NCBI GenBank assembly: GCA_963971425.1
Contig: OZ020515.1
Span: forward strand, 16,570,291-16,634,290
Length of the DNA: 64,000 nucleotides
Source: Bryoerythrophyllum caledonicum
Taxonomy: Eukaryota > Streptophyta > Bryopsida > Pottiales > Pottiaceae
Reading direction: 5' to 3'
Made by a program: the position numbers and the translations under genes. The notes under the pieces were generated by a model that worked only from the letters and a program-made list of their open reading frames with translations, searched no databases and was not told the origin of the DNA. Shown in pieces: positions 9,199-62,995 of this stretch (position 1 is the first letter of the stretch; each line of letters begins with the position of its first letter).

Positions 9199-9733
9199 AT
9201 AATTGTGGGACTCCGTTCCCACATGGAGCCGGAAGTTAACCTTAAATACCGGCCAAAACAAAAAAATTAGTTAATTAGTTATGATAGTTCTCTCTAGGAT
9301 ACAGCCTATAGTCTTCAGGTAAGAATAAAGGCGGATGGATCGGACTGCAAACCCTAACTAAGCCTAAAGCTGTTAAAAGCGGAGCCGGAGCAGTTACCAA
9401 AATCTCGGGGTAGTCACTTATCCGAAACCGCCAACCGGAGCTGTCACCATCAACTGTCATCATGGAACATACTAACGGCCAGACTACTTATGGCTGGGAT
9501 TTGGGGGGAAAACTCTTTCTTTCCTTTCTTCTTCGCGTGTTAAGGTTCCACCCAGAGCTTGCTCTCTTCCTTTCTCTTTCCCCCTTCTCTCTCTTACGGT
9601 TTTTCTAACTGCTGGCCGTTAGGGTTTGGAGCTTAGACGGTTAGAACGGACGTGCGTCCGTTAGGGAGAGTTTTGGCGAGGACGGTGCGTGTAGGAACAA
9701 CAGTGAGAGAAAGTAAGGAATTAGGTCACCTTG

Positions 9734-11801
9734 ATGAAGACGGTCCCCATGGCCAAGAAGAAGCAAACTGATAGAGATGGGCGCGGCCGGAGAGACGAAG
9801 AGCCGGCAGTTGCGCTCCCACCCTTAACCCGTGTTCTTCCGGACATCCCAGAAGACATGGACGAGTATAACCTGCTGAAGGCGAGCCTGAAGACAATGGG
9901 ATGCGAGGGTTTGCTCGAGGTTTCCTGGGGCATCCGGGAGGAGGTCTACGTCCGGCAATTGGTAGGCACCCCGGACAAGAAGTACAAGGGGTTGATGAGA
10001 GCCCATCCGGAACTCTGGGGGGTCCCGGAATGGTCTCAAACGTACGACTTCTGGGCCGGCCGCACCAAGGTGGTGGAACGGCGGGACGAGTTCCTGGCGG
10101 ACAAATTTGGAGGACCGGCGGACCCGAAGGATGGCTACAACATGCAGGACCTTCGGCACCTGGACGCCCAGCTCGTCTTAGGGTTTTTAAACCCTATCTT
10201 CCATCCGAAAAAGCCGAAGCGGGTGGTGGCGAAGTGGGCCTGCACTTTTCTTGGAGCGCTCCGGGAAAAGATAGTCGTGGACTGGGGTACGCTCATGACC
10301 GAGCTAATCAACCGCCTGGTGGCCAATCTGCAGAAGGTGAAGAAGTCGGCAACCCCTCTAGCCTCATATGTGGTGCACCTCTACTGTCACCACCAGCAGC
10401 TAGCTCCGGCGGAGGTCCGGAAGTACGACAAGGTCCTCAACTTCCAGAAGTACGGAGAAGATGAGTCGGAGGAAGAAGAGTCCGGAAGGAAGGAGCCAAC
10501 ACCGGAAACCACCCCCGCAAAAACTCCGGAAGGCAAGAGGGCTAAGAAGAGACCTCGAGGGAAGGAGCCCGAGCCAGAGAGTCCGGGAATCCGCAGCTCC
10601 TCCGCATCGTCCACAGAAGACGAGTCTGGACACTCAGCGGAAACCAGCCGGAAGAGGAGGAAAGCCGACCGGAAGACTCCAAGGGTCAGCTCCGACAGAT
10701 GGAAGAACTCTCGCGCGAGATTGGTTGGAGAGTTGGCCTCCTTAGGGACACCAACTACATCATCACCACCAGCATAGAGCAAATCTTCCGGAGCCTGGAC
10801 GTCGTCAGACTGGAGGACGCCATCAACAGAGTGGAGGAACTCCGGCACCGAGAGACAAATACCAAGGCACTGCACACCCAAATCTCTTCCATGTACAAGG
10901 CCAGTACGGAGATGGAGAAGAAGGTGACGTTATACCTCGCCGAGGCAGCGTTGGCGGTGACGGCTCGAAAATTGGTTGAGAACTTGAGGCAAAGGCCAAC
11001 ACCTCCGCAGATGTTCTGATAGAGGTCCGGAAGGCTCTGGAGGTACCAATCGATGTGGTCAACCGGAGTCAACTCTTCACCGAATTGGTGGAGAAGAAGG
11101 AGGTCACCAGGGCGAACATCATCCGGTTCCTCCTGGATCAAGCAGAGAAGATGGGACGAACTTAGGGTCTGATGAAGCTGCTGGTCGACAATATCACCGA
11201 AAACCATCCGAAAGACCCAGCAGCACCAGCAACGGGAGAAGCCGCGACCCCGGAGCGGACCACAGCTCCTCCGGAAGCTTCAACCAAGACCACTCTAGCT
11301 CCGGGCACCTCAGCAAATCCGGAGTCTCTCGACACTCCGTCACCTCGGACACCAACGGAGGGTATCGTACTTCCCAATCCGAGTACGAGTGAGATCCTGA
11401 AGAAGCTTCCGGATCTTCTATCACCACCAAATATGCGTCTGCCAAATCCTCCGGCAGAAGGTGAGTTTCCGGTACCATCCAAGTTTGTGTCCCGGAGGTT
11501 GGCGCCCGGAACCAAGAGTCCGTCCAGAAGTTACCGAGATTTGGTCCAGGAGACCAGGTCAGCTTCCGCGACGGAACTGCCAGCACCGCCGGTTCCGGAA
11601 GGATCACCGGAACAGCCCCCTCCACCGCCGGACGCCAGGACTCCAGTGGCGGGCGTCTCTCCAGCGACCGAACCATCGACTCGAAGGACCACTCTTTTGC
11701 CGGCAACGTCGAAGAAGGCGAAGGGCAAGCAGCGCGCTCCGGTGGAGATCTCCCCCTCCCGTAGGAGTGGGAGAAAACGGGGCCTAGGTGCTCCGACTTA
11801 G
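9734..11801 (+). pseudogene. Gag-like protein of element A, unknown family
   Basis: The first segment, 9734-10777, encodes 347 residues from ATG (an upstream TTG at 9731 is not used). It has a basic N-terminus, a folded domain of about 230 residues with LKTMGCEGLLEVSW and LGFLNPIFHPKKPKRV, then a Lys/Glu/Ser/Pro-rich tail. A frameshift near 10690 leads into a coiled-coil-like segment (10699-11019). A second frameshift leads to a helical stretch, VPIDVVNRSQLFTELVEKKE, then an in-frame stop at 11163, then a Pro/Ser/Thr-rich domain to 11801. The arrangement (folded domain, coiled coil, disordered tail) suggests a structural capsid-like protein, but no CCHC knuckle or enzyme motif is seen. The domain order recurs in element B. 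Function is inferred, not recognised. Confidence 0.6.
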
Positions 11802-11860
11802 GTTAGTTAGGATTTTGTATTTCTCTTAGGGTCTTAGATTCCGGATCAACAACGATTAAT

Positions 11861-11882
11861 GATGGGGCCCCAAGTGCACCCG
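11861..11882 (+). other. 22-bp block conserved between elements A and B
   Basis: GATGGGGCCC, three bases, then GTGCACCCG. The same block stands in element B on the minus strand at 53422-53401 with 19 of 22 bases identical. It lies 60 bp after the end of the reading in A and about 100 bp after it in B, and 1.22 and 1.26 kb from the respective 3' ends. It contains two six-base palindromes, GGGCCC and GTGCAC. Conservation outside the reading frame suggests a cis-acting signal. Confidence 0.7.
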
Positions 11883-12606
11883 ACTGCTGACAGAATTAAC
11901 GGCCAGTTTTATAGTTAGAGTAGGAATTCGGGAGACGGAACTGTTCCGGGATTTTTGGATCTAAGATCCGATCTGGACCTTTCCCGAATTTCTCGGCTCT
12001 TTTAGATAAGATCTAGCGGACTTTCCTTAGGATAGCTAGGAGGAAGGCTAAGATTAGTAGGGACTTAGTTGGTATTTGGTTGTGAGGTTTTGGGAAAAAC
12101 CTTTTGTTCTTGTTCTTCTCAGGTCAAAATAAACTTCGCTCTTTTCTACTCAGATTTGCTCCCTGGTACTTTTGGTGTGGTGTTTATGATTTGTAAGGGC
12201 CTGATCCATTCTTGTGCGTATCGTTGTGTGAATGGTTCGTCCGGGATAGTGTAACTCGAGTGTTTAGCCGGAGGGGAAAATTATCTAGGTCTGTGTCAGG
12301 AGATCGCCTGGGAGAGCTGGAGAGAACTATTGCAGAGGTGTTCCTGGTAGTCTCTAGGGTCCGGAAGTAGCCAGGAGGGGAGGAGATGAACTACAGAGGT
12401 GTTCCTGGCAATCTCTAGTTCACGGAAGAATCCGTGTTAAATTAGATTTCGGTCAGCAACCGGAGTTCTTCCCTAAGATAGGAAAAAGCCTGATACAAAG
12501 ATCTAGATGAAATAACCATAGCGAACGGTGAGCCTCTGTTCCGACGAATTGCAACTGTACGCCCCGGAATATTGTTGTAGTCCGGACTTAGCTCTGTGTG
12601 ACCGCG

Positions 12607-12796
12607 TCCGGAAGGCCTTCCGGATGTTGTGAGAGTCTAAGTCTAGCAGCAGCAATCCAATCATCAGTTAGTAGCGTAGGGAGAGTGGTGTTCGATCACT
12701 ATAAGTTCCGGACAGTGGGTGCCTAGCCACTTAAAGTCACAGGGCAGTGGAAAATCCAGCCACTTACACAAAACAGGATTAGTGGACTCCGGCCAC
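12607..12796 (+). repeat. Palindrome and stem-loop cluster near the 3' end of element A
   Basis: An 18-bp perfect palindrome, TCCGGAAGGCCTTCCGGA, lies at 12607-12624. Downstream are consecutive stem-loops with the same arms: CAGTGG/CCACTT at 12713-12732, CAGTGG/CCACTT at 12745-12765 and AGTGG/CCACT at 12781-12796. A weaker AGTG/CACT pair lies just before them. They could fold in the transcript. Element B has a CAGTG/CACTG pair at 52396-52411 in the matching region. Confidence 0.65.
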
Positions 12797-13111
12797 TCGT
12801 TTAAAAACTCCCGGAGACTCTTTGAGGAGGAACAGAGATAAATCAAACTACCCTTCGGCGTTCCGGAAATTACATTCCGGACACGGCTGTATAACATCCA
12901 GCTCCGGAAGGATCCGGATCTATCCTACGTAAAGTAAAGATGATAGCTAACTCGTAAACGATTTGCTGTGATAAGTTTAGTAATCCGGAGTATTTGGAAA
13001 ATAACATTAGGTCTCTGTGGGAACGAAACCGGAGCGGTTACTTTGGAAAGCGCTTAGTGACGATTGGGTGTATTCCGGAGGAATACTGTCTCTACGAACT
13101 GCAACAATAAT

Positions 13112-29563: not shown

Positions 29564-32265
29564 TAGTGGAGTGACACACCAATTGGCGCCTTGTGCCATT
29601 CCAGGGATAGTGTCCACACTGCTGCCAACTTTGACACCCTCCCGAGGGCTAAAAATTTGTTAATTTATCATGCAATTCTAGACACATAATTACCTTTATG
29701 TTTAGAACATGTGTACCAAATTTCAAGGCCAGAAGATTTATATAAAAGAAGATATTCAAGATTTATCAACAAGGGGTAGCTGTAAGAAAAGTTTCACACC
29801 TACCAACTTTGACATCCTTCCAAGGATTGAAGAATTTTTTTTCCATGGAATTTTTGGAGTGGAAAAATATTTATGTTGATCACACGTGTGAAAAAATCAA
29901 GTCCACAGGACCCACAAAAAAAAGGATGTTCCAAATCTACCAACAGGTGTAGTTGTGAGAAACAAAGGGGAAAATCGTTTCACTACTTCCAACTTTGACA
30001 GCCTCTCTAGGGCTGAGAATATGTTATTTCAACGTGAAATTTTTGTCACAAGATCATTGTTATGTTGATAACATGTGTGAAAAATTTCAAGGCCATAAGA
30101 TACACACAAAAATAGTTATTTAAAATCTACCAACGTGTATGTCCTCCATTAGCGTCAATCAATGCTTGTAACCTAGAGCATGGAATGACAAAATTGAAGG
30201 AGCTTTTTGTCACTAACTGACTTTGACTCTCTTTCAAGAACTACCTTTAACACATCTATGTTTCTAGGACCTGCCTTGTCACGTTGAACTGCATCTTTTA
30301 GAATCTTCCATAGGTTCCCAATTGGATTGAGATCGTGAGAGTTTGTAGGCCAACTAAGCTTCATAAGAAGGCGTGTTTGTCTTGATTCTTCACATATTTT
30401 GCTCCAATGGACAGGTGCGCCATCTTCCACAAGCACTGCATGTGGAACTTTACCCATGAAATAAGATAATTTCCTTTTGTAAACCACTTCCACAAAATCC
30501 TTTGCAAAATGTCAATTTAAAAGCATAAAAACAAGTTATGACTTTTTTCCTCCAACAAATGCGCCCCAAATCATGAAGGAATTCCGTCCACATTTAAAAG
30601 TAGGAATAAACTATTTGATGAATAACACTTATATGCAATTCTCCAAACATGAACTTGTCTCGAATTTTTCCCAATTTCAAAAGTAGATTCATTTGTCCAA
30701 ACAATACGCCTCCAATCATTTGGGCTCCATCCACGGTACTTCTAAGCAAAAGCGAGCCTTGATATATATGACCAGGTATCAAAAAAGAGTAGGGCATGTA
30801 CTCGCAGCTGACGCATGACAATTATTTTTTGAGTAATGCAAAACACTACGCAAATCTCTATCACTAAGTTTTGTAGTGTGACTTCTACCACAAGGTTAGC
30901 GCTTGTAAGTTCCATCTTCTCTACAAAATTTCACCAACCTCTGAACTGTTCTAATGGAAAAGCTGACAGTGGTTGCAATTTGAACTTGAGTATTCCCTCC
31001 CACCCTATAAAACGTCCACAAATTTCATCTGAAATCGCCATCTAAAATATGTTGTAATTTCTTTTGGTAGATTAACAAAACCTTAAATTCTCATTAACAA
31101 CATTAACAATTTCATACAAAATCAATCACTCAACAATAGTCACTTAAACACACCACTCAGTCCATTAGGCATAACCACATACACATCACTCAGACTAGTA
31201 TGAATAACCACATACACATCACTCACCAGGCATAAGCATGCATTACTAAATTATCTATATTAGCAGGCATAAACAACACATATAATTGCATACACATCAC
31301 TCAACAGGCATAAGCAAGCATGACAAAATTACTCATGCATCACATCAGTCATGCAACACATCACTTCATGTCTGACACATAAGACACTCTTTCTCTCTGC
31401 TCTCACCATTCCTCCAATGTTGAGTGATCACAAATCACACACAATATTTCCTTAAGTTTATACAATAGTGCTCAATTTATTGAGAGGAGGAAACTTTGTC
31501 ATGCGTGTATGATGCAAGTGGTTTCTTCTTCATGTGACAACTCCATACTTTTACATTTCAATGTTATTGATTTTTTTTATGCATTTATAATTAGGTGTTG
31601 TGTCAGATGGATAAGTTCAATGAAGAATCATGAGGTGTCAAAGATATTTCAACATTTTCACCATGTCCTTGAATTGGATATTGTAGTTATACACGTTGAT
31701 AGATTTTGAATAACTATTATTGTGTGTATTCTATGGCCTTGAAATTTTTCACACATGTTATCAACATAACAATGATCTTGTGACAAAAATTTCACGTTGA
31801 AATAACATATTCTCAGCCCTAGAGAGGCTGTCAAAGTTGGAAGTAGTGAAACGATTTTCCCCTTTGTTTCTCACAACTACACCTGTTGGTAGATTTGGAA
31901 CATCCTTTTTTTTGTGGGTCCTGTGGACTTGATTTTTTCACACGTGTGATCAACATAAATATTTTTCCACTCCAAAAATTCCATGGGAAAAAAATTCTTC
32001 AATCCTTGGAAGGGTGTCAAAGTTGGCAGTTGTGAAACTTTTCTTACAGCTACCCCTTGTTGATAAATCTTGAATATCTTCTTTTATATAAATCTTCTGG
32101 CCTTGAAATTTGGTACACATGATCTAAACATAAAGATGATTTTGTGTCTAGAATTGCATGGTAAAATAAAATAAATTCAGCCCTTGGGAGGGTGTCAAAG
32201 TTGGGAGCAGTGTGGTCACTATCCCTGGAATTGCGCAAGGTGTCAATTTGGGTGTCACCCCACTG
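29564..32265. mobile_element. Tc1-type transposon with 575-bp composite inverted repeats
   Basis: The ends are TAGTGGAGTGACAC (left) and the reverse complement of CAGTGGGGTGACAC (right). TA follows on the right (32266-32267), and TG, probably a mutated TA, precedes on the left. The inverted repeats reach to about 30137 and from about 31695. Each arm holds three diverged direct repeats of about 180 bp, each starting CCAACTTTGACA (29625, 29803 and 29989 on the left). Between the arms lie a decayed transposase gene on the minus strand and, at about 31130-31380, an array of CACATACACATCACTCA/CAGGCATAAGCA words. Confidence 0.9.
30173..31041 (-). pseudogene. Tc1-type transposase, DD34E spacing, inactive
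   Basis: ATG at 31041 opens MAISDEICG. A helix-turn-helix region follows, with ATTVSFSIRTVQRLVKFCRE, DGTYKR and KLSDRDLRSVLHY. The catalytic domain begins DWRRIVWTNESTFEIG, where the first catalytic Asp is Asn. The second Asp is kept in VLVEDGAPVHW. After 34 residues, in SHDLNPIGNLWKILK, the third acidic residue (normally Glu in PIENLW) is Gly. Frameshifts and stops are present around 30500-30960. Spacing of 34 with Glu normally marks Tc1; plant mariner-like transposases usually have DD39D. It is inactive through two lost catalytic residues. Confidence 0.85.
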
Positions 32266-42149: not shown

Positions 42150-44900
42150 TATCCTCATGAGTAGAACAGCCAATACAAACAACAATAACCATATTTGAAT
42201 ACTTAACCATGTCCCAAAAGATAATGCACAAGATTTAAATGCAATGTTTTTTTAAAGAAACTCTATACAAATTGACACATTAACTAACACCTTGGAAACA
42301 AATGAACAACTCACTCAAGCACAGTGGTCCAAAGCTTCTCATACCCTAAATACACTCATTAAGAGCATATTGACCATCCTCGAAAAAACCTGTAAAGCCC
42401 CACCCATATATCAAATAACACATCAAACATCCCAGCAAGGGGATATCGACCACGTAAATTCTCTAAACAATGGAAACAATACCTCACCACTTACCATACA
42501 ATTCCAAAAACAATTCAAATTGTCAAATCCAACCCACAATGATGTACTCATCCTAAATGCCAAAGTTTATTAAATCTCAAAAACATCCAAATTCCACCTC
42601 CACCACCTCCCTACACATCACCAGACGAATGGTTACGTGATATTACATTAATTGCAAAAGAAGCCAACAAACAAGCACTTGCAAAATAACCACCAAGTAT
42701 ACCAGAGAAAGTATCAGAAAAGCCATCTCTAAATACAGACAATTATATGACACTAGCTTAAAGAAAATTAATAGGAGAGTCTTTAAAAAGAGTGAATATC
42801 CACTTCTAGATTGTATCACCAACCAACATAACAATATCATAACTAGCCCTGAAGACATTGTAGATGAGATGTATAACCAACAAAGAAAAAATAATAGACC
42901 TATCGCACCTACATGCAACTATTTACTAGACCACCGACCTACATGTACATGTGCGGTAAGACAATATCCATTGCATGAAATTGATGGCTTCACTTTAGAT
43001 AAACGTGGTGAACCAAAAATCTCCCTACACACCTACTTTAACCGAGCCACATATGATACATGCCTCAAAAATCTAGGAAACAATAAAGCCCTAGGGCTAG
43101 ACCTCATTCCAAACTCCATATTAAAAATAACACCCCGGAGATTCCATGAACTTCTCTCCCTATTTTTCTCTCACTGCTACAAACAAAAAAATCCCCCCCT
43201 CATGGAAAACTAGTTCTACAGTAATACTATATAAATAGGTGATCCCTCAATGCTTTCCAACCATAGGCCAATTGCCCTAGCCAATACTATCTATAAACTC
43301 TTCACAAGCAAATTCACATCCATAGTATTCTCATATAGAGAAAAACACCAAATCTTATATGACAACCAAGAAGGCTTTTGTGCGGAAAGAAGTACTGCTA
43401 GACAACTCTAAACTTTGATAGTCACACTCAAATACGCACAATTTACAAACCAAGACATTTATATTTTATATATTGATTTCAAAGACGCATTTGGCTTTGT
43501 TGACCATGCAAGATCATTAGCAATTATGTCTGACCTCACCTCAGATATCCCACCAACGCAGTCGCACTAGTTGGAAACATCTACTCTCACTCATCTACGT
43601 CATACGTTGGAGAATATTTAGAAACAACCTATCTCATCCCTATATAACATGGAACCATACGAGGTGATACCATAAGCCCATATCTATTCATTATTTCCTT
43701 ATAACCACTACTAAGATGGATGCAAAGGGGAAAGAACGGCTACACCTTTGAAACATCACAAGTCACCATCAACTCGGCCGATTACGCCAATGACATTGCG
43801 GCTATAACTGAAAAAATACGATCAATGCAAATCCAACTTAATAAAATTGACAAATTTTGCGATTGGTCCGGTATGGACGTTGGCACCCAAAAATGTGCCG
43901 CCACAAGATGTCCAAACAAACCCAAAATGAACCCAATGGCATTCAAAGCACTTAGGCAAGCCGTCGACATATAACACCGTAATCAATCCATCCCTATACT
44001 ACATCAAAATGAACCATACTTGTATCTAGGCACAACTCTTGTCTCGTCACTAAAATGGAAGATTCAAATTCACATCATTACCACAAAACTTACCAAACAA
44101 TTCAAAGAACTAATAACATGTCCGGCCACTATGAAACAAAAAATAAAAGTAGTAGAGACAATACTTAGACCAGGAGTAGTATACATTTTCTACGCAATCC
44201 CATAGTCTATGCCTGCTATAAAAAAAACTAGACAAAAAATCATAGCCATACAAAAATTCATTTGTGGCCTCTTCAAATGTATGTCAAATGTCATAACCCA
44301 ACTCCCACAATTTTTTGATGGATTAGAAGCCTTTTCCCTTTAAAATTCTTACCTCAGATGCATTTAAAAACAACTTCAAAATGCACTCAACGTCAAAGGT
44401 AGACTTAACAAGATCTACAAAGGACTCACCCACTCTATCCTTTTCAGATACGGTGGTGCTAAAAACATCCTTAGAATAAACAAAGCTGATTGAATTACAT
44501 CACCAATCACTTGTTCATTTTTTCTACTAAGAAATGAAGCAATAGTTTATCCAAAAATCACACTCAAGGATTTTCTTTGAAACCCTCACCTTTGAAACAA
44601 ATGTGGCTACAAGGAACCAAAATGACACAAGATTTAACCAAACCCTCTCCCGAAAACTTTTACAAAGACTTCTTTCAATAGATATTACTGACTTAAAACA
44701 AATTACACTACCAAACGGAACACACATTATGAACCACAATGAATTCAAAATATTTCATCTTACACCATCCAAATTAGTAAAACGCGCCCTTAATATTGCC
44801 CACAAGTATTTTGCTACCTCCCATACCCTAATACATGCGCCTCACCATGCACTACACATCCAAACCCCTACATAGTCATAGACAAATATTTCACCATCTA
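42150..44900 (+). pseudogene. LINE ORF2, reverse transcriptase part, decayed
   Basis: A non-LTR RT is recognisable from LGNNKALGLDLIPNSILK (about 43070) and NHRPIALANTIYKLF (43258), through YILYIDFKDAFGFVDH with the first catalytic Asp (43460), to SADYANDIAAIT (43773), where the usual YADD box reads YAND. The thumb region follows: LNKIDKFCDWSGMDVGTQKC and CPATMKQKIKVVETILRPGV. Stops and frameshifts are frequent. No endonuclease domain was seen upstream of 42150, so the copy is 5'-truncated, which is usual for LINEs. Confidence 0.85.
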
Positions 44901-47800
44901 CAACAACATCCAACCCAAAAACAACCCCCCGCCAACTCACCCTCCCAACCCAATTCATCCATTCCTCCCTCCTAATACACATGTCAAGAATCCACCCAAA
45001 TATTCCATAAATCTTATTATTGACCATAAACATAGAAAACATATTGACTCAAACAAAACTATAAAAAATGATACCAAATATTTATGTCAATGGCAACACA
45101 ATAACAATATAAAAAACAAATGGTTACCCCAACGGAACCTCTTCCCATGGCATAACCAAAACACCTCTACCCATAACTCCGCAGAACTAAAACAATATTA
45201 TCAAAACACCCAAATTAAATTCTACTTTGAAACCATTCAAGCACACTATCCACAAGAGCAATTTTGTGACTCAAGATCCGTTACTCCACCCATAATCATT
45301 CTCCTCCTCAACATCCAGACAATCAAATGCAACCTTGAAAAAGATAGTCTCACACCAAACGATACAATCAAAATTAATGAAGACCATACACATATATACA
45401 AAGACAACGGTAGACATCTAATCATGATTCTTGTCACTAGACTACAATGGCTATGGAGCCAATACCATATTACAAACTCCCACAATCATATAGAGCCAAT
45501 AATCCAACCATTCAAAATTGAAATAGTTTGGCTATATCAAAGATATAAATATTGCATCCCCAAAAATGACCTCCTCAAACTCACACAATACACGGTAACC
45601 ACACCCATTCTAAACTCACTAATCTCATTCTTCAACATCCAACACTTGTACTTTTCATCCCCTGCCACATGCTCAATCCAACTCACTAAAGTCCATTCAG
45701 CCTTTGAAAGAAACAAAATCTTTGGCTCACTAGAAAACGCCTTTATCCACAAATGGATTGAAAATGGTATTGCGTACCTCCACAATATGAAAGAAACACA
45801 ACAAGCAATACATTGGGCAAGACTAGAGGCCAAAAATGATCCAAAATATACTTCCACTCCTATTATTACACGAGATAATAACTGGTACCAAAACTTTAAC
45901 CCACCTCAGCCCATTCCAAGATTCCCACATCATTGTTCTATTCAAGGCAGATTCGGTTCGATGTGAAGAATCCACTTCACCATTGAATTTATTAAATAAA
46001 TCTAGACTTGAGCCATCTACTATACAAATACTATACATACACCACCAAAATAACAATATTGGTACCACTAAACAACTTGCCACACTTACCTCCATAACAA
46101 ATAACCTCAACATATGCCGATTATATACAAAGATAGCCCCGCCTACACCTTCCAAAACCTTGGCGAATTGCAACAAAAAATGGTCCCAACTTAAATGTAC
46201 AAACACAACACAAATCCAATTCACTACACCACCCCCACTCCCATATATCGTGACCATATCCCCTTAAAATTTGAACCCGCATATTGTTATTACACAAATG
46301 GTTTCTTCAAAAGAACCAACAAAAGCTAGCCCTAGACATTGGTATAGAGACAAGCTGGGTATGGCATATATATCCTCACCAAAGAAATCAAAATATCCAA
46401 AAGACTACATGGACTTCAAAATATCCTCAAAGCAAAAGTGATGGCCGTCCATAAAACCCTCGATATTATCACTACACAATACACTAATGAACATGCCCAC
46501 ATCTTTACTAATTGTATTAACGTACTATATCTATTAAACACACAAATATCACACCCTACCTCCACAATAGCCACCACGACCAAGCCATACTAACATCTAT
46601 GGTTCAAATGCTACACAATTGCACACAATTACAACCCTCCATAAAGTTAGAGCACATGTCATCATAGAAGGAAACAAACAAGCGGATAAATTAGCTAAGG
46701 AAGGACTAGGTAAATTTATAGAAATGCCAAATACCCGCATGAATATGCCCACGCTACTCTATACTACTTCCAAAGAGAAAGTTGGTCTTCTATGGAAGAT
46801 ACCTCAGACAAAGGCCCCATCAGATTTCTATACAAATATCTCCAAAAACAAGATCTAATTAACAACCTTGATTAATCACAAAAAGTTTCCATGATATAAA
46901 CAAATGGACTGGTAACAACAACTTTGATAACAAACTTTTGAAAAAATCCCACATTTACAGACTCACAAAATACATGCCTTATCAAATTTTATACTGGATA
47001 CTTGTACATGGGAAATGCCTGCAAACAATTCTTCTTTAGAATAGAACGATTTCCATCCATAATATGCCCAATATGCACCTCCATGGACCCGGACACATGG
47101 CTACTTGTACTCCTCAAATGCCAAAACCATCACATACACTCCCTAATTGTCAAAATGCACAAAAAAACGGTATTGGAAATTTTAAAACTAATTGTATTCT
47201 CAAAGAAATCTAGGTGCTTTAAATTTATGAATGCCAGAACCTTCAACAACAACCCACAAGAAAACACAATCCCTCCATGGCTACTTCCATACACATGTGG
47301 AATCCAAAGATGTCATTGTAATGCCTGAATTAAATGAGATATACTATGCATCAAAGGACTACCATATAAGGACTCTCCACCGGACCACATAAATACTAAC
47401 CTCATTATCCAATATATTGGATTCAAATGTTGTACTGACAGATTTTTCTGTGAAGCAATTGAAACAAAATTAATAATTACCAACCACTTATTAAGGACAT
47501 TAGAGCCGTTGGATGGAAATCTGACCCCCTTATTGTCATTGCTGCTAGAGCTAGAGCTACTACCTTTATCCCCTCTATGAAAAGTTTTGAAAAACATTCA
47601 GTACCTCCATTAATACAATTAAGAAGACATTTACAAAAATTAACACCATTGCTATCCAACATGCAATGTCTATACTTCTACACAAGCAAAATCTCAAAAA
47701 TAACCAACCTCTCCATGATACCCCATAAAACCTTCCAAAAACACACATTTAACCTTACAAATCATCTCTTGAAATTTGTGCCAAGTGGCTCTGGTTGGTC
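44901..47800 (+). pseudogene. LINE ORF2, connection, RNase H and C-terminal part
   Basis: After a long connection region (open at 45424-45966), an RNase H domain appears at about 46270-46700: YCYYTNGF (usual TDGS, Asp lost), LKAKVMAVHKTLDI, HIFTNCINVLYLL (Asp again Asn) and KVRAHVIIEGNKQADKLAKE. A C-terminal Cys/His segment follows: CPICTSMDPDTWLLVLLKCQ at 47070 and PYTCGIQRCHC at 47289. Resemblance ends near 47780. The RNase H makes this a plant-type LINE with RT-RNase H order. Confidence 0.8.
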
Positions 47801-51143: not shown

Positions 51144-51830
51144 CTAAGTCTTTATGCCTTGGCACACCCTGTACAAACTTTGGTGCCATACTCTAGTCTT
51201 CTTGTTGTTGGCCTTTGTGTCTATACTTGACATGTCCTCTTTGGTGTTGTAGTGGCCGCTGATGATTGAAGTTCTAGTGCTTGAAATCTCATTTGATGAG
51301 TTTTGAGTTTCATGAAATAGTTCTCTCATCACTATTTCAAACGCCAAATCCATAATAAAGATAATTCCTTGCACCACCTCCTCATAGTTGTGAGACGGCC
51401 CATCAAGAACAAATTTAATCAATGTTCTATTTGCCATAATTTTTCCATAAGTTCTTACCTGATTGCATAAATCCCTTGCTTCTATGAGATAGGTGTTGAT
51501 GTCTTCACATTCCCTTATAGTCACATGCCATAGAGTTTGTTGTTAATAAACTTGTTGTTAATCTTTATTTAAAAATATAGCTTTGAGGATGCTCCGTGAG
51601 TCTATAGAATCTTCATGTTGATGAACAACTCCTAGCAAGTTGTCACCTACTGACATAGTTAGACCTGTTTCTGCACGTTGTTTGGCCTCTCTTAGCTTCA
51701 TTTCTATGTAGGATGCCCCTATGATGTTTGTAGAAAATATATTAAATCTATGTTTTGCCTCTATTAGCAGCCATATTCCTTCTCCCTTCAAAATAAAAGT
51801 AATTTTAATCTGCCATAACAAGATAGTTTA
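51144..51830 (-). pseudogene. Copia gag of the second element (UBN2-type)
   Basis: Two open segments (51821..51558 and 51524..51144) hold WQIKITFILKGEGIWLLIE, the typical UBN2 start, and ECEDINTYLIEARDLCNQVR with LIKFVLDGPSHNYEEVVQGI, the typical gag middle. A frameshift lies between them at about 51545. The primer-binding site and LTR lie just upstream in the expected order. Confidence 0.85.
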
Positions 51831-52000: not shown

Positions 52001-53400
52001 GTGTTAGAACACCCACAATAGAAAAAAATAATCACTAATCAATTTTCTTAAGAAAAAAGTAAGAGCCTTGTATATAAAGATTAGGACATTGTTCATAGCC
52101 ATTAAAGACCTAATGTGCTACATCTACTATGGCACGTGTTGTCGTAGTCTAGTGGTTTGTAATTCTCAAAGTTAATCGAAATTAATCTTAAGCGAGCCCA
52201 TCTAACCATATCAAATCCAGGGATTTATATCATGTATCAAATTCTCTAAATCTTAATAATACTTCACACTTAATACCTCGGCACATCCCGGAGGATGGCT
52301 TTCCCGGTACCTCGGTGACCGATAATAAGTATCCACAAGTGTTTAGTTTAAACTCTGTTGAACGTCAGAGTAGTTTTTAGGTAAGTTTTTACAGTGCTCG
52401 GAAATTCACTGCCATCCCTTCTCTCAGTCCAACGGCCACAATATCTACAGTCTAACTCTACACCTTGAAAGAGTTAAAAGGTTACAGCTAGTTTACCGGC
52501 CTTTACAATCTACCAGAAAATAGTCCTAGTAAACCGATCACACAAAACCGGGTTCCAACTACAACCACACAATGAATCAAACAAAGAAGATACAAGACTC
52601 ACAACAATCTAATGCTAAGCAAATCAGATAAGCAAGACAACCTTCCACGGGGATCGTCGGATCTCATCCATGTAAGGGCAGAAATCCCGGAATACTCCGG
52701 ACTCAAGCTTAGCTGGGATTTCTCTCGGTGTACCAAGAGGGGGATATCACCCCTCCTCCCCACCAATCCAAACACTTCCACATAAGGGAGGCTATCATAA
52801 ATAGCCGTGGGCTTCCCGGATCCCATTCGATAAGCAATTCTTTTTTGTTCCACTGGTCAAAATTTTTGAGTAGGTCCCGGATCTTACTCCATCTATCTAA
52901 CTTGGATATCCTACACCCTCCAGAACCTTCAACTCACATTCAATCACATAACATTCAACAAGCTACAACCTTGCACATCCTAGCAAAGACTCACTAACAG
53001 GACTCAACCTTCTCCACCTCTACTCACACAAGCTCAACAAAAGACTCTAGACACAAGCAATGAAGGCAAGACACAAGCAAAGAAACAAAGAGAAGAATAC
53101 TTAAGCCAAGAACCCAAGGCTCCTAAAGTATACAAAGGTCACTAGCTACCCTCCAAAACTAGATCCTCAAGAGGAGGGAAACGACATCTACCTCCTAGAG
53201 AGTGCACAAAGTCAATAACTACCCTTCAAAAACTAAATCCACGAAAGGACAAAATAACATCTAGATCCTAAAATCAAGGGAAGCCTAGTCATTGGCGGAT
53301 TACCGGTAGAGCGGTAAACGGGAAGACTCCCGGTCCGAGACTGGTAAAATATTCCCTAACAAAAGTAAGTAGCCGGAGAAATCACTCAAGCGGTAGTGAC

Positions 53401-53422
53401 CGGGTGCACAATGGGCCCCATC
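53401..53422 (-). other. 22-bp conserved block of element B
   Basis: GATGGGGCCC, ATT, GTGCACCCG on the minus strand. Nineteen of 22 bases equal the block in element A, and the position relative to the reading and the 3' end is the same. Confidence 0.7.
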
Positions 53423-53524
53423 AACATCACTACTCTTATCCTAGTGTTTAAATCTAACAAATTTAACAACATCCCATCAACCGATAGGACAAATCAACAA
53501 TAACACATAATATATAACAAAGGC

Positions 53525-55082
53525 TCAACCGGAAGACTCATCCGGATGAGTGGAATTATCTTCTGGTTGATCCATAAGGGGATTGACAAAAAGATTGGAA
53601 GTATCTACGGGTACATGGTAAAGAGAATCCACCGGAAGGTTGGAAGTCTCAACCGGGAGGTCTACCGGTAGATTGGGAGTATCCACCGGTAGATTGGATG
53701 TATCTAAAGATACATGAGGAGTCTCCACTAGATCAACAAGCATGGCTACAGAAGACTCAACCAAAGAATCCGGTGGTGAAAAAGGGAGGTCAACCGGTTC
53801 CTTCCCGGTAGGTTTTACCGGGAGGCCTCGTTCCCTCTTGTAAATTTTCACACCCCACTCCTAGGGATGAAGAATCCGCTCGACTCACTAGGCATTGAGT
53901 GGGTGGATCATCTTCCTCCGAAAAAAGAGAACTGTCATAGATAAATCTTCTCTTCTTTCAGGGCGGGCTCCGAGCTTGCAATGGCATGGTGGCACTCGTT
54001 TGACCAACAAGTAACTTGGTCAATGCCACCATGGTTTCTAGAACCTTGAGCTTCGAGTGAAGATACTCCTTCTAAGAGGTCCGGAGATCTTTCTTCACCT
54101 TGGCCAATTGTTCCCGGTTTTCCCGGGCTGCAGCCAATATGTCTTCGGTGTCCTCTACTCCAAATACCTTTCGGAGAGTCTTTTGAAGACTCCTTGCCTC
54201 TAGAAGCTCCATATCCATCTGCTGGACATCCCGGGTCACCTCCCGGGAGAACTAGGCTATGTTCTCTAGGAAAGTGAGACTCTTGGATGATCGGGATCGT
54301 CGTGGTGGTGGTTTCTCTCGGTAAAACCGGGAGGACCTATCCTCACTCAAGATTGCTTGAGATGATGAGGCTTCCTCTGGAATTGCCGGAAACGCCAACC
54401 GGAGCTCTGTGTGTTGAAGAAGGGCCCGGGGAGCGTGAGCTTGAGGAGCCATCCTTTGTCTCCACATCCTCTTCTCTTCCGGCTCGAGACAATGGTGATG
54501 CTCATACAAGTGCATGAGATATGGAGTTAAGAAAGTCTTGGAACATCCACCTTGTTGAATTGCCCGGAGTTGAGGAAAAATTGTCTCTTCCTATAAAGAC
54601 CCCCAATTTGAGAAGGAATCCTTGAAAAATGCATGTATGTAGGTGGTGGCTAGCCGGGCTGTGACTCTTTCACGTCGATGAGGGTGAAAGATTGAGTTGA
54701 AAAAATCAACCACCCTCCTCAATTGGTGGTTCGTGAATTGGTCACTTCGGTAGCACTACGACATATCGTAAGAATTTGACACGTGCTTGTCCAGCAGCTC
54801 TCGGTTGACTCCGAGTGTCCATCCCTCTTCTTGACGAAAGGAATACACCTTGCGCCATACTTCCGTTGTCCATGACCGGGGATTAGCCCGGTAGACTCCT
54901 TGGGGCGTCTCGGAAGGTTGCAACTGTGCCACCGTACGTCCCTTCTGGAAGACCCAAGGCTTCTTGAATAGTCCTCTGCAACCCATCCGGATGAGGTCAT
55001 CCTCCAACTATTCACCTTTCGCAGTCCCCTCCCACTTCTTCGGGTCAACCTTCAAAAGCGTCAGTGATACCGGTAGAACCAT
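53525..55082 (-). pseudogene. Gag-like protein of element B
   Basis: From ATG at 55082 (MVLPVSLTLLKVDPKKWEG) the frame runs, past stops at about 55010 and 54760, through LIRMGCRGLFKKPW, VYSFRQEEGW and VVDFFNSIFHPHRRERVTAR, which align with LKTMGCEGLLEVSW and LGFLNPIFHPKKPKRVVAKW in element A. A helical segment (about 54240-54000), RSLQKTLRKVFGVEDTEDIL and further, matches the coiled-coil position in A. A disordered tail with repeated NLPVD units ends at 53525. Shared domain order over about 500 residues shows common descent. Function is not recognised. Confidence 0.6.
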
Positions 55083-55980
55083 GTCGTCCGGGATGGACTA
55101 GCTCCGTGAAGTGCCTGTACCTCCACCAATCTCCCTATCAACTTATGACAACCTCCGGTCCGGCTTGGAAAACATAAGTATACCCGACAACCAATCTACT
55201 TTCTGCGAAACACTAGAGTAACGTGGATGTAGGTATTGCACGTATCTAGTAACACGTCAAACAAAACAACATCACAATTGACCCCTTCAAGGAGGTGACT
55301 TGGGAAAACAAGAAATTGGAAGGGGGTTTCCCGATTGACCAGGAGACCAGGAAAAAAATAGAAAAATTAGACAAGACCTAGAGATGAGGGAAGAATGGAG
55401 AAAACATGAAAGAGGACTTTTGCCACGAAGCCGGGACAATGGAAAACAAACGATGGGACACGAAGGTAGACTCACAAGTGCAAGAAATCCAGATCTAGGA
55501 CATACAAGGTGTAGATGGAGTCTACCTATAGACTTTTCTCTAGACCGGAAAGGAGGTAACCGGAGGTCACACCGGAAGAAGAAAAGAGAGAAGAGATCTA
55601 ACAAACAAGAAAGTTGTACAAACAAGAAAAACCCAATATTTGGCAAGAATTACCTTTTCTACAACTTCTTGTCACCTCCTTGTTGCACCCGCAACCTCCT
55701 TGAAATCGCGATCGTGTCTCTTGAATCTTCTCGCCGTGGCCGTGAATTTCCTTGCACCACCTCCAAGCCTAGGAATCTCCACCACTGTTGTCAAAAGCTT
55801 ACTCCACCACCATCTTCTTCCAAACCCTAGGTTTGATGTTTCAAACCCTAGGTGCCACCAACTCTCCTCAAAAACCCTAGCTTTCGCGCCTTCCTTCACC
55901 ACCTCCTTGAAAAGCCTCCTCCAACAACCTTGAATTCTCTTTGAACCGCCTCCTTCTTGAACTTCTTCTTCTTCAAACCT

Positions 55981-56104
55981 CAACTTCAACCTCCTTGTTC
56001 TTGAAAACCCCAACTCCAACCTCCTTGTTCTTGAAAACTCCAACTCCAACCTCCTTGTTCTTGAAAACTCCAACTCCCTAAAGAGAGAGAGAGAGAGAGA
56101 GAGA
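55981..56104. repeat. 30-bp tandem repeat and GA microsatellite in element B leader
   Basis: CAACTCCAACCTCCTTGTTC with its following ten bases repeats at 55981, 56011 and 56041 in a 30-bp register. A run of GA follows at about 56081-56104. Element A has a pyrimidine-rich leader but no such repeat. Confidence 0.9.
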
Positions 56105-56340
56105 AAACACAAGATAGAGAAAAAAAAAATTTAAATGAGAAAGGGAGAAGATCGGCGAGGGAGGGAGGAGATCTGGAGGGGGGGTCGAGGTCGTGAGGTT
56201 GGGAGGGAGTCGGCTAGGGAAGTTGGAGAGGTTGTTGATGTCCGGGTCCTTGAGACCCGACTGTACCTAGTTATCCGGGTACCCGACCCATACCCGGGTA
56301 AGGTCATACCCGGGTTGATATCCGTGTATGGATTAAAAAA

Positions 56341-56388
56341 ATTATTTAAAATTATTTAAAATTATTTAAAATTATTTAAAATTATTTT
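56341..56388. repeat. 10-bp tandem repeat in element B leader
   Basis: ATTATTTAAA repeats four times and part of a fifth, directly beside a C/T-rich tract. Confidence 0.95.
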
Positions 56389-56918
56389 CTTTTCTGTTTC
56401 TGTTTCTTTTTCTTTTACTTTTATTTTTTTGTTTTTCCCTCATATAAAATTAAGTGTCCATTTTCTCAAATGGGGACTTAAACTTCTACAACAACGTGAA
56501 ATCTAAACAACTACTACTAAAACTAACACTACTAAGTATACTATCTAGTTGATGAAGACTTTGACTAGATAGTTTACTCTTAAGTGGTGATTTGGACTTT
56601 TGTCCCGGAGATCCTTCCGGGCATTCTTTCTAGGTTTTTCCGGGCACAACTTTGGTAGTTTTAAGGCCCGGTTTTATCACCACTTTAACACTAATTAACT
56701 AGTTAAGCATTCACCGACTTTCATTAATTATTGTACAACCTACTTCTACGTAATATTAACTACTTTTCCAGTTATCTAAGCCTAAAAATCACAATTTAAC
56801 TAATTTTTTTGGAAGGGGCAACCAAGTGGGAGTTTCAAACTCCCACACGTGTTGATAGTTTATACAAGATAGTCAAGAGATGATAAATAAAGAACTGGTG
56901 TATGTTGTTTTGCCAACA

Positions 56919-60903: not shown

Positions 60904-61632
60904 CCGGTGTTTGGGGATAATCAATGATACTGGATACCGGCGTGGACCAGCACAGCGCGCGTTGACCACCAAAGGCCAAGAATAGTCTATTGTATTTTCT
61001 TGTGCGCTGGGTGCAAACACCGTCGCAACGCTGAGTAGCAGGTGCACCCAGGTCCAGCCCCCAAGAGTGGGGGACCAACCAAGAAAAGCGAGAAAACAAG
61101 GCAAGCGGCCCCCATTTTTCTTGTGCTCGGAGGATGATTCCAACAGAATCATGGGAACAACCATGATTCGCCACCATCACAAAGGAGGGGTTTTCCCAGC
61201 TAATTACGGCAGTGTTATGGGACCAGTGGGGGCGGATGGACGGTCCCATTTAAGGATACCACATACCACATCACTGGATCGCAGTCCCTCACACTTCTCT
61301 CGTCTTCCCTCCTTTCTCCTCCCCTCTCCTCTCCTCTCTTCTCCTCTCCTCTCTCTCCCTCCCGTCCACTTCCGATCTAGAGAGTCGTCACTTCGTAGAG
61401 CGCGTCGAGCTCTTACTAGTTCGCGTTGAGTAGATCAGTGAGCGCGTGATCCATTCCAAGCGCATTGGTTAATGCTGGAGTAATTCGACCAATTCGGTTG
61501 CCTCTTTCTACCCATCCCGCGACTAATTTGAAAAGCCCTTTGTGGAGCTGCGACTAAACCTCACGTCGCAGGAAAAACAGATCGATTGATAATATTACAA
61601 TTAAATCAGTGCACGATTGGCAACCAGACAAG
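60904..61632 (+). promoter_or_regulatory. Promoter and 5' leader region of the F-box gene
   Basis: Base composition becomes GC-richer. CTCTCGTCTTCCCTCCTTTC and further C/T-rich text (61301-61370) resembles the pyrimidine-rich 5' leader common in plant genes. No clear TATA box was placed; CCATTTAAGG at 61246 is a weak candidate. Short upstream ATGs exist, so the leader may carry small upstream readings. Confidence 0.45.
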
Positions 61633-62995
61633 ATGCCTGGTATGTAGATGTTTGAGAAAGGCGGGTGCTTGTGATTGTGTCTGCGTTTTTGTTTGGACTG
61701 GGATTCAGGGTACAGACGTTGTGTATGTCGTTGCGTTTGCGATTGTGTTGACGTTTGTGTTTTTTGTGGTTGCAGGAATAAACCTGAACATTGCGAGCCT
61801 GGCGCTGACGAGCGGTGGCGCGGCAACGAATCACGTTTGGATGGACCCGACGCTGTGGGGGGCGCTGCCGGAGCCGCTGGTGGAGCTGATCCTGGTGCAC
61901 CTGCCGCTGCCGCAGCTGCTACCAATGCGCGCCGTGTGCAAGAAGTGGAACGAGCTGCTGCACTCGGCGGCGTTTCTGACGGCGCAGCGACAGCGTACGG
62001 TGCAGTGCCCGGCGTACGTGCTGACGGTGAACGAGCCGGCGTTCAACGCGTTTTCGTTCTTTCAGACAGGACCGGAGCTCTATTACTTGCGCAGCGCGTC
62101 GCTGTACTGCGTGGCGTCCAAGAACTGGTTCAACATGTCGTTGGACTGCCTGCCGTTCCGGGACTTCTACGTGACGTCGGTGGCGGGCGGATTGCTGTGC
62201 TTCGTGGCGCACAAGAGCGCGTCCGGTAGCGCGAACCGCGAGGTGGTGGTGGGCGTGTGCAACCCCGCCACGCGATCGTGGCGCATACTACCGCGCTGGG
62301 GGGATTCCAACGTGTACAACCTGCCCGTGTTCGTAGCTATGGTGGTGGACAATTTCCACCGAACTTACAAGGTGGTGGTGATCGACCACGACCGCGCCGT
62401 GACCCGGTGCTACCACTCGGTGTCGATGGCGTGGACGCACACGGAGTCTGTGCCGTGCCGCCACAGCTTCCCGTATTACGACCGCACCCCGATGACGCCC
62501 GTGGTGCGCGGGGGGACCACGCTGGTGTGCGCCACGCAGTGCAAGACGGGGATCGCGTCGTACGATATGGACACGGGCATGTGGGACAGTTACCACGTCT
62601 GCCTGCCGGGGCTGCACTCCAATGTGCACCTGGTGCAGCAATGCGGCCGCATTCTCATGATCAGCCGCATCATGAAGGCCAAGTACGAGGGCTCCGATCG
62701 CGTGCAGCTCTCGGAGCTCGATCCCGAGGGCCTACGCGTCACCACGCCCCTCGACGACGTCCCGCTCGGCCCGTCCAAGCAGTTCCTGGACCACTTCAAG
62801 GTGAGCGCTTGCCGCAGCGTGGACGACGACTCCGAGGGCCTGTGCTTTGTCTCTGTCACCACCGGCGAGCGCTGGCTCTACGACCTCGAGGATCGCTTCT
62901 GGCACATCTTGCCCAGCAGCCCCGGCAGCAAATCCAAGAGCATGGCCGCTTACGGCGGCTTCAGTGTCCACCTCCGCGTCGACATTCAACCTTAA
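61633..62995 (+). CDS. F-box protein, kelch-like C-terminal region
   Basis: Exons 61633-61639 and 61776-62995 join to a 408-residue protein. The intron runs 61640-61775 with GTATGT donor and TGCAG acceptor. The start is ATG in ACAAGATGCCTG; the long open frame upstream of 61776 reads through the intron and is not used. The F-box fills residues about 27-68 (LWGALPEPLVELILVHLPLP, then RAVCKKWNELL), the SKP1-binding part. The rest (NPATRSWRILPRW, ASYDMDTGMWDSYHV, ERWLYDLEDRFWHILP) gives repeated beta-blade-like units with W and Y, as in F-box/kelch proteins such as Arabidopsis At5g15710. The probable role is substrate recognition in an SCF ubiquitin ligase; the substrate is unknown. Coding GC is much higher than the surroundings. 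No stop or frameshift interrupts it. Confidence 0.88.

Follow-up and report, generated by a model that had tools for sequence, protein, structure and literature searches.

Structure of the locus

The window, i.e. the whole stretch of 64,000 nucleotides that was analysed, contains two insertions of the same build, referred to as elements A and B. Element A and its immediate surroundings comprise the following features:

9199..9203, no strand: ATAAT target duplication, 5' copy
9204..13106, plus strand: element A, 3,903 bp, almost certainly a solo LTR (ends and 5-bp duplication; copies elsewhere flank an internal gag-RT domain)
9204..9223, plus strand: 5' terminal hairpin TGTGGGA-N6-TCCCACA (fold; a similar hairpin starts B)
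9725..10777, plus strand: initial open piece (350 aa) of the protein encoded by the LTR, including the N-terminal domain
10546..11801, plus strand: remaining pieces in shifted frames, 10546-11019, 10980-11165 and 11166-11801 (third-position excess in 27 copies)
11863..11881, plus strand: motif TGGGGCCC..GTGCACCC directly after the ORF, common to A and B
11990..12013, plus strand: most conserved non-coding LTR block, with an imperfect dyad GATCTT-N6-AAGATC in most copies
13107..13111, no strand: ATAAT target duplication, 3' copy

Element A has TGT...ACA ends, starting with TGTGGGACTCCGTTCCCACA and ending with GAACTGCAACA. Its first 20 bases, TGTGGGA(CTCCGT)TCCCACA, form a hairpin with a 7-bp stem, the predicted DNA fold of which (-5.6 kcal/mol) was equalled by 3 of 200 shuffled sequences. 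Neither hidden LTRs nor direct or inverted terminal repeats were found in A using 9-base seeds, BLAST at a word size of 7, and end-against-end alignment, the self-comparison being no better than that of shuffled sequences. The best end-against-end alignment of the outer 150 bp scored 15 (shuffle mean 15.8), and that of the outer 300 bp scored 21 (shuffle mean 18.2; 32 of 200 shuffles did as well). The copy in the window is devoid of PBS, polypurine tract (PPT), interior, and pol. Hence, the ends, the perfect ATAAT duplication, and the 5' hairpin were found where the original prediction had placed them, and the lack of terminal repeats, PBS, and pol that it had reported was confirmed. Among the most conserved parts of the LTR is also a 24-base block (11855-11878) near the motif that follows the ORF. 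An AATAAA near LTR position 2925 is present in some copies only, and therefore no U3/R/U5 borders are claimed.

Element B, on the opposite strand, comprises the following features:

56848..56852, no strand: ACACG duplication, 5' end of B
52140..56847, minus strand: element B, of the same build as A, 4,708 bp, putative solo LTR (ends and duplication; genome matches)
54252..55007, minus strand: stop-interrupted relic of a related LTR gene (tblastn)
52135..52139, no strand: ACACG duplication, 3' end of B

Element B starts with TGTGGGAGTTTGAAACTCCCAC and ends with CTACGACA, between the two ACACG copies. The 350-aa piece of A matched the minus strand of the window within B (55007-54462) with 30% identity over 184 aa (tblastn, E 1.1e-21). 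In addition, A and B have the TGGGGCCC..GTGCACCC motif downstream of the ORF in common, as well as a short block rich in A close to their 5' ends. The blastn E values of these short matches are weak (0.15 and 0.056), and the matches are of note for their conserved order. At least 94 matches to B were retrieved from the host assembly (35 of 1,999 candidates scored). On C7, a direct pair of B copies lies 10.5 kb apart, with flanks TCCAT/TTCAC (3 of 5 bases identical); neither PBS nor PPT was seen at this pair, the far end of which was not found. Element B is probably a solo LTR as well.

Copies of element A in the host genome

A search of the host assembly (437 Mb, 894 contigs) yielded at least 53 matches to A (39 of 3,420 candidates scored). 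Of the 28 loci first examined, 27 possessed both ends, 21 of these with a perfect 5-bp duplication. Adding four more copies, and leaving out copies that missed one end, gave a set of 31 two-ended copies, with a perfect 5-bp duplication in 23, at least four of five identical bases in 28, and three or fewer in the other 3. These duplications cannot be ascribed to chance, since mismatched flank pairs (n = 930) agreed in 5 of 5 bases in 0.2% of the cases, and in exactly 4 of 5 in 1.2%. The flanks of the 27 copies contained no shared interior, and a PBS-like 3' flank was found in none of the 31 copies.

The pattern TCTCTACRAACTGCAACA, representing the 3' end of A, occurred with at most one mismatch at 1,062 sites genome-wide (538 + 524), compared with 0 + 3 for the reversed control. 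Among the first 100 of these sites, all of which are located on C1, 7 same-strand and 5 opposite-strand neighbours occurred within 20 kb. Single units with their own duplication were found on C1 at 33904-33908 kb (CCTCG) and at 45010-45014 kb (CATGC); the unit at 33913-33917 kb had no perfect duplication (CAACA/ACAAC). For five further C1 copies, the 3' end alone was found, one of which (C1:4772107) was followed by a PBS.

Several candidate arrangements were rejected. The two direct copies of L029, 518 bp apart, do not represent an LTR pair, as they are 19% divergent and each is flanked by a separate 4-of-5 duplication. Similarly, the 411-bp spacer of L036 is target DNA and not an interior, as the same sequence occurs in L040, where it adjoins a sequence that we take, from a motif judged by eye, to be a hAT-like transposase. 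Finally, an apparent second family resulting from a search with the 5' end dissolved, as its sole member fetched, L046, turned out to be a full copy of A.

A complete element and the origin of the single units

A complete element was found at C1:19856507-19870192, where the termini of two A-type copies delimit stretches of 3,904 and 3,903 bp around an interior of 5,879 bp. Its outer flanks (CTGTC/CTGTC) share a 5-bp duplication. The first LTR is followed by CGATTTC (7 bases) and a PBS-like TGGGGCCGTTGCCGGGGACC, the letters of which are presumably of the tRNA-Asp type, and the second LTR is preceded by the polypurine tract GGTGAAAAAGGGGTAA. This pair, judged on its termini and spacing, was the sole one read at all four ends, and the spacing of the termini suggests that the LTR gene is present in both of its LTRs. 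A part of 4.4 kb of the interior (L064) matched the Pfam families Retrotrans_gag (3e-9), RVT_1 (1.4e-18), and RT_RNaseH (6.9e-39), and contained three zinc-knuckle (CCHC) stretches. Between the knuckles and the reverse transcriptase, the place expected for a protease, no Pfam match was found in L064; a protease would nevertheless belong to the parent element. The L064 interior had no match in the 64-kb window or in L001-L041.

Genome-wide, a strict pattern detected 22 LTR-PBS junctions and a loose pattern 65, some of the latter possibly stemming from related families; the reversed-pattern controls gave 0. With 1,062 3' ends against 22-65 junctions, most copies of the A family look like solo LTRs. 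For each junction there are thus 14 to 51 single ends, a high ratio compared with a survey of 15 plant species, in which the regression had an intercept of 2.69 solo LTRs for every complete element (PMC7251063). At the fractions found here, a set of 31 copies without a single complete element has a probability of 0.27 (strict pattern) or 0.017 (loose pattern), so that the early lack of pairs was weak evidence.

Taken together, there is little room for doubt that A is a giant, protein-coding solo LTR of 3.9 kb, derived from a Ty3/Gypsy parent, that has probably lost its interior by LTR recombination and the gene of which has been under purifying selection. The parent would be a retrotransposon of about 13.7 kb, consisting of a 3.9-kb LTR, PBS, gag, RT-RNase H, PPT, and a second 3.9-kb LTR. 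After reverse transcription, its DNA would have been inserted into the genome, duplicating 5 bp of the target, with an integrase as the likely joining enzyme of the A family. Subsequent homologous recombination between the two very long LTRs, the probable main route to the single LTRs, would have removed the interior, leaving one LTR and the original duplication. The additional protein encoded by the LTR gene, some 650-690 aa in length, differs from the gag of the family and was subject to purifying selection during the spread of the family.

Two other origins of the single units were considered. The original prediction had left the choice between a giant protein-coding solo LTR and a new class of LTR-less, non-autonomous element that uses an integrase supplied in trans and has no LTR parent. 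In favour of the latter, the 31 two-ended copies are single units, most with their own 5-bp duplication, the flanks of 27 of them share no interior, and same-strand and opposite-strand neighbours are near-equal in number among the 100 C1 sites considered above. However, the original prediction had itself named copies flanking a pol domain as the refutation of this reading, and the C1 element answers to that description, with its LTR-interior-LTR order, its shared outer duplication, the PBS-like and PPT-like inner flanks, and the gag-RT genes within. Together with the LTR-PBS junctions elsewhere, and with the lack of a pair among 31 copies being weak evidence, this refutes the LTR-less element as a complete account, leaving it next to no probability, and upholds the solo LTR. 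Alternatively, both routes may operate, in that complete elements exist, whereas many single LTRs were inserted as one-LTR DNA by an integrase and are not leftovers of recombination. We know of no mechanism for such an insertion. The gene of its own in each unit and the number of single ends per junction, far above the survey value (PMC7251063), would fit this proposal. However, solo LTRs keep their duplications too, so that a second route is not required, and long LTRs have been cited as favouring solo LTR formation (Du et al. 2012, as quoted in PMC7251063), which makes it highly improbable.

The protein encoded within the LTR

The LTR frame of A, of about 690 codons up to position 11801, is broken by frameshifts and one TAG. 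A full-length stop-free frame was found in none of the 27 full-length copies, the longest one (622 aa) occurring in L014. Among these copies, the third-position excess tracks the frames of A through the frameshifts, from LTR position ~600 to 2600. For the L014 frame, the mean dN was 0.114 and the mean dS 0.414 (dN/dS 0.275), and dN was lower than dS in all 351 copy pairs, which are not independent of each other. The controls gave dN/dS values of 0.92 and 1.22 for the shifted frames and 0.68 for the non-coding 3' part. This pattern of substitution indicates that the LTR gene is kept by selection.

A protein search with the 350-aa piece gave no match. With the 622-aa frame of L014, three proteins were retrieved from public data, with lengths of 653, 640, and 646 aa (39, 41, and 33% identity, respectively), and a profile search led to these three again. 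A scan of viral contigs and a search of PDB sequences gave no match to the LTR protein. Pfam searches with this protein and its relatives returned nothing above the curated cut-off; below it, the natural relative P0004 matched ATG17_like (0.0033) and the piece of A matched RAE1_2_domI_C (0.3). AlphaFold models had a mean pLDDT of 40 (single sequence) and 57.9 (8 rows), the latter model predicting a helical N-domain, a coiled coil at 306-473, and a mostly disordered remainder. Foldseek returned 5 matches to the model at E<=10 and none at E<=0.001.

The original prediction had described one gag-like reading. An open piece is indeed present, of 350 aa and continued in other frames, but it is not gag. 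A gag gene with zinc knuckles lies within the interior of the C1 element, and the LTR gene therefore encodes an extra protein, in which neither a Retrotrans_gag domain nor a zinc knuckle was found above the Pfam cut-off, whereas the interior has both. Our best guess as to its role, offered as a conjecture, is that of an accessory factor acting on the RNA, the particle, or the silencing of the element.

As an alternative, the frame could be a functionless passenger, either a captured host gene fragment or a chance frame. The lack of an intact frame among the 27 copies is in line with this, as is the absence of matches above the Pfam cut-off, in PDB sequences, and by Foldseek at E<=0.001. Yet, the low dN/dS was found in the right frame only, the excess at third positions keeps to the frame over some 2 kb, element B contains a relative, and there are three public proteins (640-653 aa, 33-41% identity), rendering a mere passenger very improbable. 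An LTR gene kept by selection is thus preferred. Its product is an extra retrotransposon protein, without a fold relative at the Foldseek threshold of E<=0.001, that has relatives in both LTR families of this genome and among public proteins.

Relation to known elements

Several known elements share part of the build of the A family. The Ginger DNA transposons resemble A in that they have TGTNR ends and duplicate a short target site, of 4 bp in general and of 5 bp in TDD-4/5, whereas their terminal inverted repeats and integrase-like transposase (PMC2836005) have no counterpart found in A by end alignment and Pfam, respectively. The soybean elements Diaspora and Calypso (Ty3/Gypsy, tRNA-Asp PBS; PMC1142308) likewise combine a Gypsy gag-pol interior with long LTRs. 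The PBS follows the LTR after 5 bases in Diaspora and after 7 in the C1 element, and the available part of that paper mentions no LTR gene in these elements, unlike in the A family. The rice elements Retrosat2, RIRE3, and RIRE8 are Gypsy-type elements of more than 12 kb, with LTRs of more than 3 kb and an extra protein, as in the A family. However, ORF0 of Retrosat2 is a second ORF upstream of gag-pol (PMC3485330), whereas the extra gene of the A family sits within the LTR, so that each solo LTR has a copy of it. Similarly, plant aORFs encode an extra non-gag-pol protein, albeit from a position internal to the element, in most cases downstream of pol and ahead of the 3' LTR (PMC7264820), and not in the LTR itself; the portion of this review that was available contains no such LTR location. 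A limited search of the open literature retrieved no case of a plant ORF inside an LTR. In animal retroviruses, accessory genes are located within the LTR or overlap it, namely sag of MMTV and nef of HIV, which resemble the gene of A in their position.

The present case resolves a misleading signature: an insertion of the integrase type that bears a gene but lacks LTRs may turn out to be a solo LTR with coding capacity, and annotation could mistake it for a host gene or for a new class of elements. If the solo LTRs express the protein, its supply in trans would connect them with the complete elements. It is possible, although rather doubtful, that the A family represents a Ty3/Gypsy lineage, probably a plant one as judged from an F-box gene and the kind of elements present, with a selected accessory gene wholly in its LTR, and that its roughly one thousand solo LTRs start out as stand-alone copies of this gene that might provide the few complete elements with the protein in trans. 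If so, the formation of a solo LTR need not be a dead end.

Insertion sites

Uninterrupted paralogous sites were found for two copies, as L002 compared with the flank of L026, and L008 compared with the flank of L016, displayed a 5-bp overlap. L004 was inserted in B-like sequence, and L011 consists of an A copy within an A copy. The site into which A itself was inserted is a coding relic, the pieces of which that were tested had no Pfam match. Indeed, when A and one ATAAT were excised and the flanks were joined in a script, a minus-strand frame of 187 aa spanned the junction.

Features of the A-type LTR

The most conserved stretch of the LTR of element A, a solo LTR of a Ty3/Gypsy retrotransposon, is non-coding and consists of 24 bases (11990-12013), as found by comparison of A with 26 other copies. 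In most of these 27 A-type copies, this block contains an imperfect dyad, GATCTT-N6-AAGATC, which might represent a promoter or a protein-binding site. In three genomic copies of A (L034, L036, and L037), the match ends at LTR positions 2551, 2656, and 2521, respectively, all of them near the end of the LTR ORF. Regarding this extra-protein frame, the last frame of A is interrupted by a single stop codon, TAG (11163-11165, + strand). Likewise, the in-frame stops of the related gene relic in element B (54252-55007, - strand), noted by eye, are all TAG. Such a pattern would be expected from C-to-T changes in CAG codons.

Other features of the window

Further genes and frames in the window were the following:

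51144-51542, - strand, putative Copia-type gag relic downstream of B, based on likeness by eye
44794-45963, + strand, open frame of 390 aa, PCIF1_WW match below the cut-off (E 5.4e-5)
61532-62992, + strand, F-box gene (PF12937, PF00646), the foremost indication of a plant host

The 390-aa frame is located within a strand-biased stretch (42-48 kb), displaying a GC skew of -0.29 to -0.45. Finally, two inverted repeat arms of 576 nt each (29565-30140 and 31689-32264), which are 95% complementary and separated by 1,548 nt, possibly constitute a DNA element.
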